IMG/VR virus record: IMGVR_UViG_3300006802_000542
Location: 1 to 24,465 of that record
DNA: 24,465 nucleotides
Source of the DNA: a virus
Reading direction: 5' to 3' (one strand)
Shown: positions 10,192 to 22,521 of the stretch, one piece after another
Position numbering within the stretch: the first letter of the stretch is position 1
Layout: each line of letters starts with the position of its first letter
Position numbers and translations under genes: made by a program
Notes under the pieces: generated by a model
What the model was told of the DNA's origin: nothing
The model's input: only the letters and a program-made list of their open reading frames with translations
Databases searched by the model: none

Positions 10192-10554
10192 TTAGGGAGT
10201 AGGCTCCCAACCTCCTAGTAGTTCATTCCAATCATAGTCTAAACCGTCATTCGGTGCAAGCACCGGAGCTTCCCACAAACAGGAATCTTCGTTCAACAGC
10301 CAAGACGGGTACGGCTGAGGCGGGATGAACGCATCCCTCGTTTCGTCATAGGTGAACCCGATCCCAGCGTAGTTCTTCCGAAACGGTGTGCCCCCAGAAA
10401 GGTGAACGCCGCCTAGCGTGTTGTACGAGGTTCGCTTACACGGTACACCCCTGAAGTTTCCGTAGAACTGTTCCCAGTCCGTCTCGCCCTCGTCTAGGCC
10501 AACAATGACCTCCACGACAACATTGTTCTCGTCCAAAAATGCGTAGTGTGCCAT
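10192..10554 (-). CDS. conserved phage structural-region protein of unknown function
   Basis: I choose ATG at 10554 (MAHYAFLDENN), which overlaps the upstream TAA as TAATG, giving 120 residues; an ATG five codons earlier would lie inside the upstream gene. The order MAHYAFLDENNVVVEVIV, FRKNYAGIGFTYDE, DAFIPPQPYPSWLLNE and WEAPV is one I recognise from small proteins common among fibre genes of marine and cyanobacterial T4-like phages. The function is unknown to me. Its place next to the glycine-rich adhesins suggests a fibre-tip or fibre-assembly role. Confidence 0.75.
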   Translation of the reverse strand: MAHYAFLDENNVVVEVIVGLDEGETDWEQFYGNFRGVPCKRTSYNTLGGVHLSGGTPFRKNYAGIGFTYDETRDAFIPPQPYPSWLLNEDSCLWEAPVLAPNDGLDYDWNELLGGWEPTP

Positions 10555-11468
10555 TACGCCACCGTCCAAGTAATAGTGCCAGTACCGGCTGTAATCCTGA
10601 CATACCTTGTGCTAAGATATGTTGTGTCGACGCTAACAGTCAAACCAGAGGTTGAAATATCGTACTCTACTGGGAAGCTCAAAAACACCGTTCCGCTACC
10701 TCCGCTACCGCCTGCGGCCGACGATGCCCCACCGCCACCACCACCGCCGCCGCCGTTAGCAGCACCAGAGCCACCGGCTGTCCCATCAACACCACCATCT
10801 CCACCAGAAGTACCACCATCTCCACCGACACCCGTGGAAATGTTGTTGTCGGAAGCACCGCCGCCGCCATGAGCAAGCCAGTAAATGGAAGTGGAAGGCC
10901 ATCCGATTGTCTTTTCAAGACCTCCATCACCGCCAGGGTGGCTAGTTCCACCCGCAGTATTACCAACACCGGCAGCACCACCACCACCAGCAGCAGACTG
11001 ACTTGTACTGTACGTCGTACCACCACTATAACCTTGTCCTGTGGTCCCAGACCCAGGACTGGTGCTGTCGTTAGCACCAGCACCACCACCAGAACCGCCA
11101 TTGCCAGGTACTTGATCTGCGTTCGGTCTAACACCATTGCCGCCACCAATCGAAGTGATCGTATGAAATGTAGTATCCGAACCCGAAGACCCATTTGTAT
11201 TTCCGCCACCACCGGCACCACCGGCACCTATGGTTACGCTGTACGCCGTACCTGTAGCCAGAGTAAGGGTACTCTCAGCAGAAGCCCCACCGCCCGAAGT
11301 GCCAACGGTTGATCGGTAACCTCCTGCGCCGCCACCGGAGCCACCATAGCTGGCACGACCGCCGCCTCCACCGCCACCGCCTGCAACCACGACATAGTTG
11401 ACAACAAGATCGGGAATCACGATTCCCTGTTGCCCCAGAACGCCAACGATAAAGTTATAGAATCTCAT
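10554..11468 (-). CDS. glycine-rich adhesin-like tail fibre tip, copy 2
   Basis: This 304-residue protein is dominated by glycine runs (for example GGGGGGGGRASYGGSGGG) separated by loops, with an opening VVNYVVVAGGGGG and an end ITAGTGTITWTVA. Poly-glycine arrays of this sort form polyglycine II sandwiches in gp38-type adhesins at the tips of T-even fibres; loops between them contact the receptor. Residues 1-30 differ from copy 1 (MRFYNFIVGVLGQQG). It is clearly paralogous to the gene upstream: both share GGYRS, SAE(T)SLS/TLT, TAYxVTxGAGGAGG and the C-terminal end. ATG overlaps the previous stop (ATGA). Whether it is a fibre itself or a detachable tip is unknown. Confidence 0.75.
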   Translation of the reverse strand: MRFYNFIVGVLGQQGIVIPDLVVNYVVVAGGGGGGGGRASYGGSGGGAGGYRSTVGTSGGGASAESTLTLATGTAYSVTIGAGGAGGGGNTNGSSGSDTTFHTITSIGGGNGVRPNADQVPGNGGSGGGAGANDSTSPGSGTTGQGYSGGTTYSTSQSAAGGGGAAGVGNTAGGTSHPGGDGGLEKTIGWPSTSIYWLAHGGGGASDNNISTGVGGDGGTSGGDGGVDGTAGGSGAANGGGGGGGGGASSAAGGSGGSGTVFLSFPVEYDISTSGLTVSVDTTYLSTRYVRITAGTGTITWTVA

Positions 11469-12340
11469 GCCGCACTCCAGGTTACCGTGCCAGTTCCAGC
11501 AGTAATCTGAGTCACCTTATTCGATCCAACAGTAGAAGTTGATCCCGTCAACCCTCCGCTCAGTGTGGGGGTGTAGGTACTAGGGTAGCGCAGGATAACC
11601 ACACCAGACCCACCATTACCACCATCATCGTTTGCATTTGTTCCACCACCGCCGCCCCCAGTATTGACAGTACCGTCTACACCGCTGCTGGTTGTGCCAT
11701 CACCACCGCCATCAACAGCAGCACCGAAAGATGCGTCGTCGTTACCGCCGCCGCCACCACCAGCGCGACCAATAGCCGTTCCAGTTATTGATGAGGTTAC
11801 ACCAACGCCCCCAGCGCAGTTTTCGGGTCTTCCATTACCACCAGAACCACCCGCACCGCCACCGCCACCAGCGTCGGTCACATAGTTACCGCCTGCATAC
11901 CCTTGATTGGCAGTGCCACTAGCACCAGTATTTACAGCACCATTACCACCGCCTCCACCAGAACCGCCAGATTGCGATGCGCCAGATGTAGCACCACCTC
12001 TGCCGCCACCAGTAGAAGTGATGCTGACAAAAACCGAGTCGCTGCCGTTAGAGCCAGGATTACCTCCAGTGCCTCCAGCGCCCCCCGCTCCAACAGTGAC
12101 CGTATAAGCAGTACCAGGGGTGCAACTCAGAGAAGTTTCAGCAGAAGCTCCTCCACCCGAAGACTCTCCAGACACAGATGAGCGATAGCCGCCAGCGCCG
12201 CCTCCACCACCATCATTTCCAGAACCACCACCGGCACCACCGGCAATAACAAGGTACTCAACAGTAAATGAAAGGGTCGGGGTCGGGATGCGTACACGTT
12301 TCTGCCCGACCGCTGCAATAGCAGCAGCAGCAAGGCTCAT
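11465..12340 (-). CDS. glycine-rich adhesin-like tail fibre tip, copy 1
   Basis: The 291-residue product starts with a short helix (MSLAAAAIAAVGQKRVRIP), then VEYLVIAGGAGGGSG, and continues as an array of glycine-rich blocks to about residue 245. The end reads ITAGTGTVTWSAA. The composition fits a polyglycine II adhesin. It overlaps both neighbours as ATGA and lies directly after a long trimeric-type fibre gene, in the place where adhesin genes such as T-even gp38 are found. Its paralogue follows immediately. The hydrophobic N-terminus could anchor it to the fibre. Confidence 0.75.
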   Translation of the reverse strand: MSLAAAAIAAVGQKRVRIPTPTLSFTVEYLVIAGGAGGGSGNDGGGGGAGGYRSSVSGESSGGGASAETSLSCTPGTAYTVTVGAGGAGGTGGNPGSNGSDSVFVSITSTGGGRGGATSGASQSGGSGGGGGNGAVNTGASGTANQGYAGGNYVTDAGGGGGAGGSGGNGRPENCAGGVGVTSSITGTAIGRAGGGGGGNDDASFGAAVDGGGDGTTSSGVDGTVNTGGGGGGTNANDDGGNGGSGVVILRYPSTYTPTLSGGLTGSTSTVGSNKVTQITAGTGTVTWSAA

Positions 12341-16846: not shown

Positions 16847-17932
16847 TCAGACAGTGATGGTGCCACCGAGAGCGCCACCGTAGGTGTTGAGGACAACACG
16901 GCTCTCGTGCGTGATCATACCGAAGCCCCAGATGGCGTACCAGGCCAGACCGTGCTCACGACCGAAGTCGATCACACCGCCGTCTCGCAGCTCAACCGGG
17001 AGCGAGATGGCATGGCCGAAGGCGTTGTCACCGATCATGATGGAGTTGTACGACTGGGTGTGCGGAGCCTGAGCACCGGACGTGCCACTGTCAATGTCGG
17101 CCGGTACGGTGAGGCCCTTAGCCACCTGCGTGGTCTCAATGAACACCACGTCGTAGATACGGCCGATCTCACCGAGCATGAAGTTGCCGGGGGCGGCATA
17201 CTTCGTGACTTCGATGAACTCCGGCCAATCACGGAGCGCACGGCTCTGCGCCGGGTGAACGAAGCACACGTAGGTGTCGCCCAGACGGGGGATGTTCTGC
17301 CCAGCGAGCACCTCAACAGCGTCCTTGATGGACGCCGGGGAGAGCCAGCCCGGAGAGGCAGCGGTACCAGCCGTGCCCTGATCGTACGGCGAAAGGGCAG
17401 TACGGTCGCCTACAGAAGAGCGGCCGAACACGACGTTCGGAGCAACAGCCGAGCCACCACCGAACGGGATAGCGTTCTGGTAGAGGGTGTTGCGAGCCTG
17501 CGTGTCCATCGACTGCGCCATGTGACGACCGAGGAGGCGAGAGGCCGATGCCATAACGTCATCGAACGCCGCATTAAGCAGCAGTTCGGTAACGGCCACA
17601 GCCTTACCGTGCTCCTTGACGGTGATCTGGATCTGAGAAGCGGTCAGCGAGACCGGCTCCATACGAACACCCTCGTCAAGCTCAGAACCATCCTGATCCA
17701 CGTCGAGGTTGTTGTAACGCATGAAGTTGATGGTCAGACCAGGCTGAACACCGAGTTCGGTCTTCTTGACGGCGAACTGCTCAAAGCGAAGCACCGGCAT
17801 CGCCTGGAACAGAATCTCCTTCGACCAAATCTCCTGAATAGCAGGTGAAAGGGCGGTGGAGGTGTCGTAACCAGTAGCTGAAATGGCAGCGGTACCGGTA
17901 ATCGCACCGTTAGCGGGAGCGGGAAGGGCCAT
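16847..17932 (-). CDS. major capsid protein, N4-gp56 family (HK97 fold)
   Basis: The 361-residue protein matches the N4-gp56 capsid pattern. The N-terminus has LSPAIQEIWSKEILFQAMPVLRFEQFA; the middle has LTASQIQITVKEHGKAVAVTELL and a helical RLLGRHMAQSMDTQARNTLYQ at about 135-155. Then come YVCFVHPAQSRALRD, the GNFMLGEIGRIYDVVFIETT strand region, and a C-terminal GREHGLAWYAIWGFGMI segment. In this family it builds the icosahedral shell. It follows the scaffold gene and precedes a strong hairpin. ATG at 17932 has a GGAGG site. There is no N-terminal delta domain to speak of, which fits a separate scaffold protein. Confidence 0.93.
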   Translation of the reverse strand: MALPAPANGAITGTAAISATGYDTSTALSPAIQEIWSKEILFQAMPVLRFEQFAVKKTELGVQPGLTINFMRYNNLDVDQDGSELDEGVRMEPVSLTASQIQITVKEHGKAVAVTELLLNAAFDDVMASASRLLGRHMAQSMDTQARNTLYQNAIPFGGGSAVAPNVVFGRSSVGDRTALSPYDQGTAGTAASPGWLSPASIKDAVEVLAGQNIPRLGDTYVCFVHPAQSRALRDWPEFIEVTKYAAPGNFMLGEIGRIYDVVFIETTQVAKGLTVPADIDSGTSGAQAPHTQSYNSIMIGDNAFGHAISLPVELRDGGVIDFGREHGLAWYAIWGFGMITHESRVVLNTYGGALGGTITV

Positions 17933-17972: not shown

Positions 17973-18743
17973 TTAGCGACCTCTAAGTGAGGCTTGTGCC
18001 AAGAGCCGGTCCCTAACTTGTGCATACTGATCCATCGTCATGTTGGCGATATCCGCCCCCGTTAACGTCTGCTGCTCCGTTGCGTTCTCCAATGGCCCAA
18101 TTGGGGTTGACCCCGTTGCCGGGACTCCCCTCAGGCGCTGCTGTTGAGGCATAGCCTGTTGGATGTTCTCTAATATAGCAGATGTTCTTGCTACAACGGC
18201 AGAAATTGACGCTTCAATCTCTTCTTCGTTATTTCCTCTGACAAAATCAAGCAATTCTGGCATGATTTCGTCCTGCTTTTCCTGAATTCGTCGTGACTTA
18301 TACGATTCAAGCTCCTGAAAGCGGCGCTCCTGCTCAAGGATCATCTTCTGAGTCTCAGCTTCCTGCTGGAGAAGACCGAACTTCTGCTCCCATTCCTGCT
18401 GGACTGTGTTGATGCGCTGCTGAAACTCGTCCTCCTTCTTCATAAGGAGGTCCTTTGCCGACATCTCGGCTTCCTCACGCTGACGACGCTCCTCTGCCTC
18501 TTTGGCAGCGAGTTCTTCAGCGAGACGCTTCTGCTCTTCACGCTCCTGATTGAACAACTCAACCTGCTCTTGCAGCTTGGAGATCTTGTCGTAGAGCTTG
18601 TCCTTCTCCTGGCGACGGATACCCTCTACCTCTTCCTGAGTGAAGAGCTTTGAGTTCTCTGTTCTAGAGGCCTCGGGGGCCGCTGCCTGCTGGGTCGGGA
18701 CATCAATGGTGATCGAGTCACCAGGATCGTTGATACCTGCCAT
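17973..18743 (-). CDS. capsid scaffolding protein (coiled coil)
   Basis: Residues 33-165 of this 256-residue protein form a long, highly charged coiled coil rich in Glu, Gln, Lys and Arg. The N-terminal 30 residues are disordered, and the C-terminal end (TMDQYAQVRDRLLAQASLRGR) is a basic amphipathic helix of the type that docks on the capsid protein. Position between portal and capsid genes is standard for scaffolds. It would direct procapsid assembly inside the shell and then leave. There is no protease motif. ATG at 18743 follows GAGGT. Confidence 0.88.
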   Translation of the reverse strand: MAGINDPGDSITIDVPTQQAAAPEASRTENSKLFTQEEVEGIRRQEKDKLYDKISKLQEQVELFNQEREEQKRLAEELAAKEAEERRQREEAEMSAKDLLMKKEDEFQQRINTVQQEWEQKFGLLQQEAETQKMILEQERRFQELESYKSRRIQEKQDEIMPELLDFVRGNNEEEIEASISAVVARTSAILENIQQAMPQQQRLRGVPATGSTPIGPLENATEQQTLTGADIANMTMDQYAQVRDRLLAQASLRGR

Positions 18744-18795: not shown

Positions 18796-20481
18796 TCAGT
18801 CCGATTCAGGCACTCGTCGTTGAGCCAGGTTGGCTCCGAATGCCCGCTGTGCCAGTTGGTTTACTATGTCACCAGAGGGGCTAACCCCTGGCATTACTCC
18901 CGATTCCTCTTGTGGGGAACCGGCAGAAGTTGTACCGGAGCCTCCAGCGCTCTTAACAGCTGGCTGTGCTCCCTCAGGGATAAGCATTCCGGTAAGAGCC
19001 ATAACGGAGGCACCGATCTGGGCGTTGATAAGTTCGAGCGCCCCTTGGTCAAAGGCATCGTCTCTAAGCTCTTCAGATACCTCTGCCATTTTCTCGTTCG
19101 GGAACTCCTCACCCAAAGCCCTAAGGGCACCACGCTTGGACTCAAGCCCCATAGCCATCTTCGCTTGCAGCTCGTTCAGCTTGATGAGCTGGTCAACAGG
19201 CAGCGGATCAGGCCAATGGATGGACGTTCGGTACGTATTCGGATCACGAGGATCAAGAATCTGAGCTTGATCAGGCTCTGGGTACGTGGCCTCCATTGGA
19301 TTCCACTGGAGGCTCTCAGGCTCATGAACAGCCTGAGTGCGAATGATGAGTTCATTCAGCTGGACCAAGCCCTTGGTGAAGTGGACCTTCTTCATGTAGA
19401 AGCGGTTCATCATCGGCTGGTACTGAATTGCCAGGGCTACACCAGACGTGTTGGAGATCGGTTGGGTTCTACCGAGAGCGTTCTCGGGTACACCCGTGAT
19501 CTCGTGCATAGCCTGTTTAATCATCTGGATGTACTGGAGAGCACCGCCCATCTCGCCGCTTGATTCAAGGTTGTAAACACGAGCGTCCTTAGGCAACCCT
19601 GCCCATACCTTCTTGGCTCCACGCTCTAACTGAGAAGCCTTAGCTCCTGTAATAATAGTAACGGGGGCGCTGTGGTAGTTGACGATGTCAGAGACCTCAG
19701 ACATCTTCTCGTTCATCTCACGGTTCAGGGAAATGATGTCCCAGATATCCGACTGACCCCAGGGAGAAGAAGAGATGCTCACGTTAGGAATATGAACGAT
19801 GGGCACCTTACCGATGGGGTTCGGGTACTGGTCGATCAACTCATCGTTGATGTACTGCTCAACCGTATCGTCCGTAAGGATCTCAGTGAACGTGTACACC
19901 TGCCGAGTGCCTTCGGGGCTGGTGCCCCAGAAGCGGTACTTAAGCTTGAAGCGAAGGATGCGATCCCTGTCATGGGGGTGATACTCAGGGAAACAGTACG
20001 CCGGATTCAAGGGAATGATACGAGTCTTTCCGGTGTGGATGACTCCAATAGCGTCCTCCCAAGGCTCCTCGTAAGCAACCTTGACGAAGCAGTCACCGGT
20101 AACACTGGCGAGCTGGCCCATTTCCCAAAGCGTCTTCTGCTTATCGTTATCGACTTCCCATACCTTCTGAAGGAGGTGAGGAATGATCGCACTCGACATC
20201 TCAGGGGTCTTGAACTGGACGCCCTTACCAAAGCAGAAGTTGGTGATATAGTCCGAAATTGTACGGACATAGTTGAGCGTGATGTTCTGATCGCCCATCT
20301 CACGACGATGCGACCAATGATGCCCGAGGTACCAAGCCCAGGCAGCGGAGTAGCGGTTCAAACGGGGGCCGTGAACCTCAAACTCTTCGTCAGCCAGTTC
20401 GACCAAGCCAAGGGGAGAGATAGCGACAGTAAGGTCGCTTGAACTGGCTCTATAGCTTGGTGACCAAAAATCAACTGGCAA
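18796..20481 (-). CDS. portal protein
   Basis: This 561-residue protein has the order typical of SPP1-gp6-type portals: an N-terminal LNRYSAAWAWYLGHHW segment (40-56), ITLNYVRTISDYITNFCFGKGV, a wing domain with LASVTGDCFVKVAYE and PEYHPHDRDRILRF, then SDIWDIISLNREMNEKMSEVSD and a MHEITGVPENALG clip/stem region near 350. The C-terminus is glycine/serine-rich and likely disordered. It forms the dodecameric DNA gate at one vertex. The start is TTG at 20481, 6 bases after AGGAG; an in-frame TGA just upstream rules out a longer start. Scaffold and capsid genes follow. Confidence 0.92.
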   Translation of the reverse strand: MPVDFWSPSYRASSSDLTVAISPLGLVELADEEFEVHGPRLNRYSAAWAWYLGHHWSHRREMGDQNITLNYVRTISDYITNFCFGKGVQFKTPEMSSAIIPHLLQKVWEVDNDKQKTLWEMGQLASVTGDCFVKVAYEEPWEDAIGVIHTGKTRIIPLNPAYCFPEYHPHDRDRILRFKLKYRFWGTSPEGTRQVYTFTEILTDDTVEQYINDELIDQYPNPIGKVPIVHIPNVSISSSPWGQSDIWDIISLNREMNEKMSEVSDIVNYHSAPVTIITGAKASQLERGAKKVWAGLPKDARVYNLESSGEMGGALQYIQMIKQAMHEITGVPENALGRTQPISNTSGVALAIQYQPMMNRFYMKKVHFTKGLVQLNELIIRTQAVHEPESLQWNPMEATYPEPDQAQILDPRDPNTYRTSIHWPDPLPVDQLIKLNELQAKMAMGLESKRGALRALGEEFPNEKMAEVSEELRDDAFDQGALELINAQIGASVMALTGMLIPEGAQPAVKSAGGSGTTSAGSPQEESGVMPGVSPSGDIVNQLAQRAFGANLAQRRVPESD

Positions 20482-20523: not shown

Positions 20524-20691
20524 TTACTTGCTATTCTTCTTCTTTTTAGCAGCGTTCATGTTATCTACTAAATTCGGATAGGGACGCCCAGCCTTCTTGG
20601 CCGATGCCTTGGCCTTGCTCTTCTGGTCGGGGGTCAGCTTCTTATCCTTCTTTGTGGGGTCCTTTTTCTCCCACACCTTCTTTTCGGTCAT
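20524..20691 (-). CDS. small lysine-rich protein with GRPYPNLVDNM motif
   Basis: This 55-residue ORF begins at ATG 20691, which overlaps the upstream TAA (TAATG). About a third of the residues are lysine. The N-terminus is KKDPTKKDKK-like; the core reads KASAKKAGRPYPNLVDNMNAAKKK. I recognise the GRPYPNLVDN motif as recurring in small proteins of varied phages, function unknown to me. Extreme basicity suggests nucleic-acid binding, perhaps inside the head. It is the last gene before the portal. Confidence 0.8.
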   Translation of the reverse strand: MTEKKVWEKKDPTKKDKKLTPDQKSKAKASAKKAGRPYPNLVDNMNAAKKKKNSK

Positions 20692-20969
20692 TACTTCTTG
20701 CCTCTATTTCGTGCTCTGTTAGTGCTCGGATCTTCTGCAACCAGTTTGCCGCTCTTGGTGTGGGACATGTCCTTCTTAGCGACAGGCTTGTGGCTGTTCT
20801 TGTCGTTGGGGCCGTCAATCCCACGATCACGACGCTCCTTACGACGTTCGACCTTCTTGTCCTTGACGGACTGCTTCTGGTCGTAGTCCTTCATGTACTC
20901 GGCTTTCTTCTCCCGAGCATCAGGATTCTTCTGGTAGTACTTAGCTGTTGACTTCTTACGGGTAGTCAT
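20691..20969 (-). CDS. small basic protein of a widespread phage family, unknown function
   Basis: I choose ATG at 20969, which overlaps the upstream TAA as TAATG, giving 92 residues (MTTRKKSTAKYYQKNP). An ATG eight codons earlier would sit inside the upstream gene. The protein is Lys/Arg-rich throughout. A KDMSHTKSGKLVAE segment and an N-R-A-R-N end are familiar from small proteins of phages and large DNA viruses, some annotated as HNH-like. I do not see a full HNH motif, so I leave the function open. It is coupled to both neighbours. Confidence 0.75.
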   Translation of the reverse strand: MTTRKKSTAKYYQKNPDAREKKAEYMKDYDQKQSVKDKKVERRKERRDRGIDGPNDKNSHKPVAKKDMSHTKSGKLVAEDPSTNRARNRGKK

Positions 20970-21262
20970 TACCACTTCACCTTGTCTGCCCAATAGGCGG
21001 CGCTCATCTTGCCCTTCTTGATGTTGGCAGAATGACGAGCCTTGAAAGATTCCCGCTTCTTTCTCATCGCCTCTGACTCGCCAGCCTTGGGCTTGCCAGC
21101 AGTCTTTGCGCCCTGCTCTCCGAACCGGATGGTCTTCACCTGATCGCCTTCTTTGGCGACAACAATGTGAGACTTGGTCGGATGGTCAGGGGTGCGCTTG
21201 GGCTTGTTGTATCCCTCAACGCCAGCTCTTGCCAAGCGTGGGTCCTTCTTCTTCTCAGCCAT
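20969..21262 (-). CDS. small basic protein with C-terminal AAYWADKVKW motif, unknown function
   Basis: The 97-residue product is strongly basic. The first 35 residues look disordered; then KTIRFGEQGAKTAGKP, a helical EAMRKKRESFKARHSANI and MSAAYWADKVKW complete a small domain. I recognise the K(R)xSFxARH...YW order from many phage and giant-virus small proteins, without known function. Its ATG lies 8 bases after the Dps-like stop with GAGG between, and it ends in a TAATG overlap with the next basic gene. Co-expression with the Dps-like gene is likely. Confidence 0.75.
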   Translation of the reverse strand: MAEKKKDPRLARAGVEGYNKPKRTPDHPTKSHIVVAKEGDQVKTIRFGEQGAKTAGKPKAGESEAMRKKRESFKARHSANIKKGKMSAAYWADKVKW

Positions 21263-21270
21263 GAGTTACC

Positions 21271-21705
21271 TCACTTTGTAGAGGCACGGAGCATCCATGC
21301 CCACTTCTTGTGCATGTCAATGCGGCCAGCGAGAAAGTCCATGAAGCCCTGTTCATCCTGCTTTTCAGCTTCCTTGAACACGTTCATGTACGTCTCAATG
21401 ACCTTGTCGTTGGCCTCTTTAAGAGCAGAGGCCATCGCCTTGGGGGACGGATCTACGTCCTTGACCTTGAGTGATGTCATCTTCACGTACTCACTCAAAT
21501 CGAAAGGGGCGTAGGCGTCGAGTTTGCGGATGTTCTCAGCGACGCCATCGACAGAGTCGCTGACATCTTCATAGATCATCTGAAAGAGCGAGTGGTACTG
21601 ACTGAAGTCCTGACCCTCGACATTCCAATGAAAGCCGATAGACATGAAGTAGAACGTCACGACATCGGCCAACAACTTCTCTGTAGCTTCAATAAGAGAT
21701 TTCAT
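21271..21705 (-). CDS. Dps-like mini-ferritin
   Basis: At 144 residues this is a short Dps-family protein, a four-helix bundle that forms 12-subunit cages. The signature FHWNVEGQDF is at 25-34, with YHSLFQMIYED and VDGVAENIRKL after it. Compared with E. coli Dps ligands His51, His63, Asp67, Asp78 and Glu82, the spacing gives His26, His38, Gln42, Asp53 and Glu57, so four of five are kept and Asp67 is replaced by Gln. The lysine-rich N-terminal tail used for DNA binding in E. coli Dps is absent. Expected role: iron oxidation/storage and peroxide protection, of phage or host DNA. It lies between the exonuclease and the basic proteins, upstream of the portal. The ATG follows GAGGCC. Confidence 0.88.
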   Translation of the reverse strand: MKSLIEATEKLLADVVTFYFMSIGFHWNVEGQDFSQYHSLFQMIYEDVSDSVDGVAENIRKLDAYAPFDLSEYVKMTSLKVKDVDPSPKAMASALKEANDKVIETYMNVFKEAEKQDEQGFMDFLAGRIDMHKKWAWMLRASTK

Positions 21706-21729: not shown

Positions 21730-22470
21730 TCACACCGTGGTGGAGTTAACTCGTTCTTCTACTTTGTTAGCCTTACTATAGCCCCTACAGCTCTTGCACT
21801 GAACCATCCGGTATCTACCTGATCTGGTCGTGTAATACTTTCTAGTGACCAGTTCTTCATGACCGCAACGGGGACAAGCGAGAGGGTCGCCCCCGTACAA
21901 ACCACGGTGAGGATGAGTTTTAATCCAGGGCAAGAGCTTGTCGTACAACTGCTCTGTCAGAACCACATCGTGACGGTTGTACTTACGCATAACCTTCCAG
22001 GCGGCGGCATCGCCCTTCATGCACCTCAACCAAAGGTCGAAGCCGTCGTGCTGAACCTTGCCGCCAAGTCCCAATTCCGAAGCTACGTGTTGCAGCTTGT
22101 TGCTTGCAAAACGAAAGCGCTGCTTTACGACGGTAAGGAGATCTACGTCTACATAATGCGAAGGGGGCGCTAACCCAGCCAAGAGAAACTCTCTGTTGAG
22201 GTGCTTCATGTCAAACGACTTGCTGTTGAAGCCGACAACTACATCTGCCTCATCCAGCAGATCCCAGATCTTAAATATCATAGACTTATGACCGTCATGA
22301 TAATCGCTAGCGAAATGAACCTTGCGTTCACCGTGCCACTTAGCCGCCCAGGAGATAACTCTACCAAACTGGTCTACCTGGTTAAGTGCGACGTTCTGGT
22401 CCCACAATCCCCAGACATAGGCGAGGTTTGGCCTGGTCTCTATGTCTACGGTAAGTATTCTGATGCCCAA
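21730..22470 (-). CDS. DEDDy 3'-5' exonuclease with C-terminal zinc ribbon
   Basis: I choose TTG at 22470 as start because a perfect AAGGAGGT lies 6 bases upstream; a TTG ten codons earlier has no such site. The 246-residue product has the three DnaQ-like motifs: ILTVDIET (Asp9, Glu11), GFNSKSFD (Asp87), and YNRHD (Tyr163, Asp167), so it is of the DEDDy type. C-terminally, CPRCG (Cys198/201) and CKSC (Cys224/227) form a zinc ribbon, probably for nucleic-acid contact. It should degrade DNA or RNA from the 3' end with two metal ions. There is no polymerase domain. It begins a run with the Dps-like and basic genes. Confidence 0.87.
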   Translation of the reverse strand: MGIRILTVDIETRPNLAYVWGLWDQNVALNQVDQFGRVISWAAKWHGERKVHFASDYHDGHKSMIFKIWDLLDEADVVVGFNSKSFDMKHLNREFLLAGLAPPSHYVDVDLLTVVKQRFRFASNKLQHVASELGLGGKVQHDGFDLWLRCMKGDAAAWKVMRKYNRHDVVLTEQLYDKLLPWIKTHPHRGLYGGDPLACPRCGHEELVTRKYYTTRSGRYRMVQCKSCRGYSKANKVEERVNSTTV

Positions 22471-22476
22471 TGGAGC

Positions 22477-22484
22477 ACCTCCTT
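22477..22484 (-). promoter_or_regulatory. perfect Shine-Dalgarno deciding the exonuclease start
   Basis: AAGGAGGT lies 6 bases before TTG at 22470. It is the strongest ribosome site I noticed in the window and argues for the TTG rather than the longer frame. Confidence 0.85.
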
Positions 22485-22521
22485 GTGTCACGTACTCCAA
22501 ACCAGTCTACAACCAATACTG

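Follow-up and report, generated by a model that had tools for sequence, protein, structure and literature searches.

A Dps-type mini-ferritin encoded among virion genes of an aquatic phage and its possible association with the phage head

Dps is a mini-ferritin that oxidises iron and protects DNA. Phage-encoded Dps as such is already known, from gut 'Gratiaviridae' and other phages (PMC8008677), Synechococcus phage S-SRM01, the Aeromonas phages LAh_6/8/9 and Lactobacillus phages, in all of which the gene has a genome setting other than the one described here. The S-SRM01 protein resembles ours in being without the fifth carboxylate of the ferroxidase centre; it and the Aeromonas phage proteins are 28-30% identical to it. 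The best match in both sequence and fold is Pseudomonas aeruginosa Dps (PaDps, PA0962; PDB 8ff9-8ffd), which has the same four direct metal ligands and the conserved Trp and, like the phage protein, no basic tail, whereas it is cellular, has Glu at the fifth position, is about 32% identical and has a large Tyr network that is partly shared only. Tail-less Dps proteins are also represented by Helicobacter cinaedi CAIP and H. pylori NAP (about 26% identity), which have a secreted or immunomodulatory role in bacteria; CAIP has the same Gln and Glu as the phage protein at the positions of Q42 and E46. Lastly, three UniProt entries from uncultured Caudovirales named 'Prohead protease' (A0A6J7XDU5, A0A6J7WPK9, A0A6J7WIS1) contain a Dps domain, 38-43% identical and superimposable with TM 0.87-0.98, that is not annotated as Dps and is fused to the head protease, whereas the gene studied here stands alone. 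Proteins joining protease and Dps thus already exist as unremarked database entries. What is new here is not phage Dps itself; it is the association of Dps with the head protease and with two kinds of small basic protein, termed K1 and K4 (DUF6321, PF19846), on which no paper was found in a literature search that fell short of most subscription journals.

The window gene and its ferroxidase centre

The window, that is, the whole stretch of DNA analysed (24,465 nucleotides of IMG/VR virus record IMGVR_UViG_3300006802_000542), carries the following genes in minus-strand order:

21730..22500, minus strand: DnaQ/PolB-type 3'-5' exonuclease (phrog_403), upstream neighbour of Dps
21271..21705, minus strand: Dps-type mini-ferritin, 144 aa (Pfam PF00210, PHROG 3636, PDB 8ff9, AlphaFold, alignments)
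20969..21262, minus strand: K1, basic, 97 aa, pI 10.3, phrog_7595 (profile match; linkage)
20691..20969, minus strand: K2, basic, phrog_6437
20524..20691, minus strand: K3, basic, 55 aa, phrog_34011; its ATG overlaps the K2 stop (TAATG)
18796..20481, minus strand: portal protein (SPP1/gp6-like), downstream neighbour
17973..18743, minus strand: probable scaffold protein (weak PHROG match)
16847..17932, minus strand: major capsid protein (MCP), phrog_1357; nearest isolate Streptomyces phage BRock

The proximity of Dps to virion genes and the three lysine-rich proteins directly behind it (pI 10.2-10.3), both pointed out in the sequence-only reading, are confirmed by this arrangement. The start codon of the Dps ORF is ATG, closely preceded by a GGAGG-like site. 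For K2, the ATG at 20969, which overlaps with the stop of K1 in TAATG, is preferred to the less likely TTG listed at 20993, and the two TAATG overlaps make it probable that K1, K2 and K3 are co-translated. The MCP is about 61% identical to that of phage BRock and shares 77-83% identity with the MCPs of 12 large contigs (76-99 kb) that bear Dps; it is also 37% identical to that of Bacteroides phage BS162P1, itself with a Dps-like stretch. Two minor observations concern other genes of the window: the exonuclease has a C-terminal Zn-ribbon-like tail resembling Lar restriction-alleviation proteins (below cut-off), and two adjacent overlapping genes at 10554-12340 both match phrog_2295 while having little sequence in common.

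Judged from its sequence and predicted structure, the window ORF is almost certainly a genuine Dps mini-ferritin with an intact ferroxidase centre. The Dps-like identity proposed earlier is borne out by Pfam Ferritin (PF00210; 1e-16, 61.5 bits at a cut-off of 24.5 bits), which places the protein inside the family, by PHROG 3636 (3.8e-26, 93 bits) and by a sequence search of solved structures, in which PaDps is the best match (PDB 8ff9, 5e-23). Viral relatives number 46, at 47-81% identity. The AlphaFold monomer model, computed from 45 aligned sequences (pLDDT 97.3, pTM 0.91), has the five helices of a Dps subunit (2-28, 34-61, 70-76, 88-115 and 119-142), which make up a ferritin-like four-helix bundle whose B-C loop holds the short helix. 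Foldseek superimposes it on 8ff9 with TM 0.94 and an rmsd of 1.4 A, well within ferritin-like folds, and the matches listed are Dps-type proteins or Dps mutants, the top ones all Dps. The lysine tail is indeed missing, as had been read from the letters: the protein is acidic (pI 4.9), and neither the N-terminus (MKSLIEATEKLL) nor the C-terminus (RASTK) has a Lys-rich DNA-binding stretch. Such a tail belongs to E. coli-type Dps only and is not defining for the family. W27 and Y45 are invariant in the viral Dps alignments and are presumably a radical-trapping pair, by comparison with W32/Y50 of Listeria Dps. Relative to its nearest relative, the gene has a dN of 0.14 with dS saturated. A cellular source was considered and rejected, for the closest cellular Dps are 33-40% identical and no recent cellular donor of the gene was found.

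The metal ligands are assigned as H26, H38 (+12), D53 (+27) and E57 (+31), hence one His each from helices A and B followed by Asp and Glu later in helix B. The spacing of 12, 27 and 31 residues from the first His, noticed earlier, holds, and alignment verifies that the Asp67 position is taken by Gln42, not by an acidic residue. The weight once attached to the absent carboxylate has to be withdrawn. The acidic residue at the Asp67 position is second-shell or water-mediated in canonical Dps and is not universal, so that its absence is not disqualifying. In the iron-soaked structure of PaDps, the ligands are H37, H49, D64 and E68 only (PMC10002758), and a gap-free alignment puts these four on H26, H38, D53 and E57 of the window protein. 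Residue 67 (E. coli numbering) of canonical Dps acts via water and is Asn in NpDps4 (PMC6675082). Among the 77 nearest cellular Dps, which were chosen by similarity to the query and are not a random sample, 60 have Glu at position 42 and the other 17 have no acid there (16 Met, 1 Gln); among 105 unique viral sequences this position is acidic in 11 and non-acidic in 94. The four ligands, by comparison, are invariant in all 105 and are kept in all 63 Dps domains of a second set, fusions included, which argues that catalysis is under selection. Taken together, the PaDps ligands, this invariance and the variable position 42 identify the 'four of five' pattern as the normal direct-ligand set of this Dps branch. 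A shifted ligand, with E46 replacing position 42, had looked like compensation, E46 being conserved in 62/65 of the window Dps family and Ser in the two E42 sequences listed. It was rejected as explanation because nine sequences have both residues, those of S-SRM01 type mostly have neither and PaDps needs neither.

Basic partners of Dps

In 90 Dps loci of the window family, Dps is usually the first or last gene of a short same-strand island whose products have a median pI of 10.1. Most relatives have this island outside the head module, flanked by replication-type and baseplate-type genes on the opposite strand. Profile search finds K1 (33 loci) or K4 (58 loci), never both, on the same strand and within 1.5 kb in 91 of 94 related viral Dps loci; of the other three, two have a distant Dps type (L046, L047) and one is cut by the contig end (L045). 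The background is 1 K1/K4 ORF in 500 kb of portal loci. The lysine-rich neighbours seen in the window are therefore a conserved association and not a local accident. Near the S-SRM01-type cyanophage Dps the K1/K4 linkage is absent (0/81 loci). On the Dps tree, the partner switched between K1 and K4 9 times, at least 8 of these changes being forced by supported branches: one partner is exchanged for the other, yet the place near Dps remains occupied, which is better explained by function than by shared descent of one locus. K1 and K4 were also considered as homologues, which was rejected because hhalign gives only a short common motif. Folding of K1 likewise gave no usable functional hint (pLDDT 77; viral fold matches weak beyond its own family).

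Dps itself comes and goes. In the nearest kin (portal 86-90% identical), 24 of the 25 readable exonuclease-K1 junctions are without Dps, the exonuclease adjoining K1 directly, and the one exception (L002) is not the sister of the window on the portal tree, so that Dps was gained or lost more than once in this lineage; on the Dps tree, the two form a long branch nested among the Dps of the wider group. K1, K2 and K3 occur without Dps at these 24 junctions and in many marine phages, from which it follows that the basic proteins do not depend on Dps. The idea of K1 as a strictly co-transferred companion of Dps was discarded: the window K1 groups with Dps-linked K1s, the K1 of L002 with those of Dps-less kin. 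Among 13 contigs of at least 60 kb, picked by capsid protein only, Dps is present in 9, and K1 or K4 adjoins it in all 9. An apparent second Dps ORF in one locus (L034) proved an artefact of ORF clustering.

Outside the Dps loci, K1 and DUF6321 are found in head and packaging modules of other phages. DUF6321 is the C-terminal domain of T4-GC119, encoded between the terminase genes of cyanomyoviruses and called a 'structural protein' in S-B43, while the Syn9 record gives it no structural label; in podovirus P-SCSP1d, a small DUF6321 ORF lies directly behind the MCP gene, and the head region of S-CBS2 contains K1. In the entries for P-HM2 and S-SM2, GC119 and virion proteins such as neck, sheath, tube, portal and capsid are annotated as 'similar to Synechococcus phage S-SM1 protein', but terminase, UvsY and UvsW are not. 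Since S-SM1 virions were analysed by mass spectrometry (PMC3037559), this pattern indicates that GC119 may have been detected in them. As a side observation, a K1 (phrog_7595) domain forms the end of a cytidyltransferase ORF (L518:219-2099, plus strand) that precedes a Dps fusion ORF by a few genes; cytidyltransferases have been reported from cyanophage virions (PMC3037559).

Fusions of Dps to the prohead protease

A fold search of viral models led to Dps domains inside 'Prohead protease' entries (UniProt/BFVD), and scans of viral contigs then revealed further cases. Peptidase_S78 and Dps share one ORF in L569 and in L558, where the protein of 446 aa (Peptidase_S78 at 2.5e-32) is encoded between portal-like and MCP-like ORFs. 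ORFs of about 1700-2000 aa contain the head maturation protease and then Dps in L515, L524, L527 and L553, the next gene in L515 being that of the major head protein (MCP). In L046, portal, head protease and Dps are neighbouring genes, the latter two overlapping by 4 nt. One ORF unites in a single chain the protease with Dps and DUF6321, which are neighbours in the window family:

L584:4792-7152, plus strand: protease-DUF6321-Dps-coiled-coil ORF, 787 aa; MCP-like ORF next

Its domains run from the head maturation protease (8-167) through DUF6321 (190-261; 2e-28) and Dps (405-542) to a coiled-coil tail. The ORFs described as portal-like or MCP-like in L558 and L584 were so named from order, size and sequence rather than by a profile match. 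Six changes are required to place the fused state on a tree of 63 Dps domains, and supported branches force at least 4 of them. In assembly of the HK97 and T4 types, the interior of the prohead houses the protease and the scaffold, and a Dps cargo fused to them should thus be inside, too. The earlier suggestion that the window protein might be packaged gains indirect backing, by analogy, from these fusions in its homologues.

Function in the particle or in the infected cell

Based on the combined evidence, we infer that members of this Dps family associate with the phage head and shield the DNA of the phage against iron/peroxide chemistry, and we assign a probability of about 0.5 to the reading that the window Dps is a catalytically complete detoxifier of this kind, either packaged or acting at the assembly stage. 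The proposed mechanism starts from the Dps fold with its complete four-ligand ferroxidase centre, which sequence and model show. The protein would oxidise Fe2+ with H2O2 and store Fe3+ in a 12-mer, as P. aeruginosa Dps does, and on this analogy iron/peroxide chemistry is probably its working activity. In such a shell of 12 subunits, the ligands would meet at the two-fold interface. Its placement at the head is suggested by the fusions to prohead protease and scaffold precursor, by the partnership with K1/DUF6321 and by the head and packaging modules in which other phages carry these two. For the Dps of this particular phage, we consider the chances of head association evenly balanced, because the window gene is unfused and the association comes by analogy. 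The basic partners might supply the DNA contact that the acidic, tail-less Dps lacks, a proposal that we regard as rather doubtful. A Dps 12-mer (about 9 nm) should exceed the width of the portal channel; if packaged, it would thus probably act inside the particle or enter the cell only as dissociated subunits. The generalised form of the proposal falls a little short of an even chance: widespread aquatic tailed phages would package an active mini-ferritin, within the protease/scaffold precursor or with a K1/DUF6321 partner, as a functional pair that protects the packaged DNA and perhaps mineralises iron beside it.

The main rival, of lower probability and still to be taken seriously, is an intracellular stress protein encoded by an auxiliary gene, which stays unpackaged and quenches iron and peroxide, which would protect both host metabolism and the replicating DNA of the phage. 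Gut phage Dps has been interpreted in this way in print (PMC8008677), and infection in one system is accompanied by strong induction of host dps (PMC7354516). The position of Dps outside the head module in most relatives and the S-SRM01-type Dps without K1/K4 link agree with it, whereas the repeated fusion to the prohead protease and the near-invariant pairing with K1/DUF6321 are left unexplained. If these fusions and their coiled-coil, scaffold-like regions were taken as the primary clue, the Dps fold could be viewed as purely architectural, a module that oligomerises or fills space in the prohead core, with iron chemistry only incidental. That is improbable, since none of the viral sequences examined, whether fused or not, has changed any of the four metal ligands, whereas position 42, which is not a ligand, is free to drift. 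We know of no nuclease site of Dps that would permit a sequence check of the least probable alternative, in which the phage protein acts on host DNA by nicking or degrading it. P. aeruginosa Dps, the closest solved relative, cleaves DNA in vitro with divalent metal despite having no basic tail (PMC10002758), and the upstream gene of the window encodes an exonuclease, but a fusion in the capsid precursor would place a nuclease beside the packaged DNA and the exonuclease adjoins Dps in the window lineage only, which makes this reading very unlikely.

Virions are without metabolism. The protease fusions and the pairing with basic proteins in relatives of the window gene suggest that the particles of some phages come with a built-in iron detoxifier. 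If true, a nanocage that oxidises iron in or on the head would be a new means by which phages withstand damage from iron and sunlight-driven peroxide on the way from host to host, and virus particles in lakes and coastal water would constitute a small, testable carrier of iron. DUF6321 and K1 are small basic proteins present in hundreds of marine phages, and the fusion of Dps, DUF6321 and protease provides a first functional handle on both; to the function of DUF6321, the L584 ORF offers the most promising lead. Roseophage CRP-603 has K1 followed by homologues of two further basic proteins of the Dps islands, K5 and K6, upstream of its terminase genes (L048:1791-2648), a module of small basic proteins that recurs in unrelated aquatic phages.
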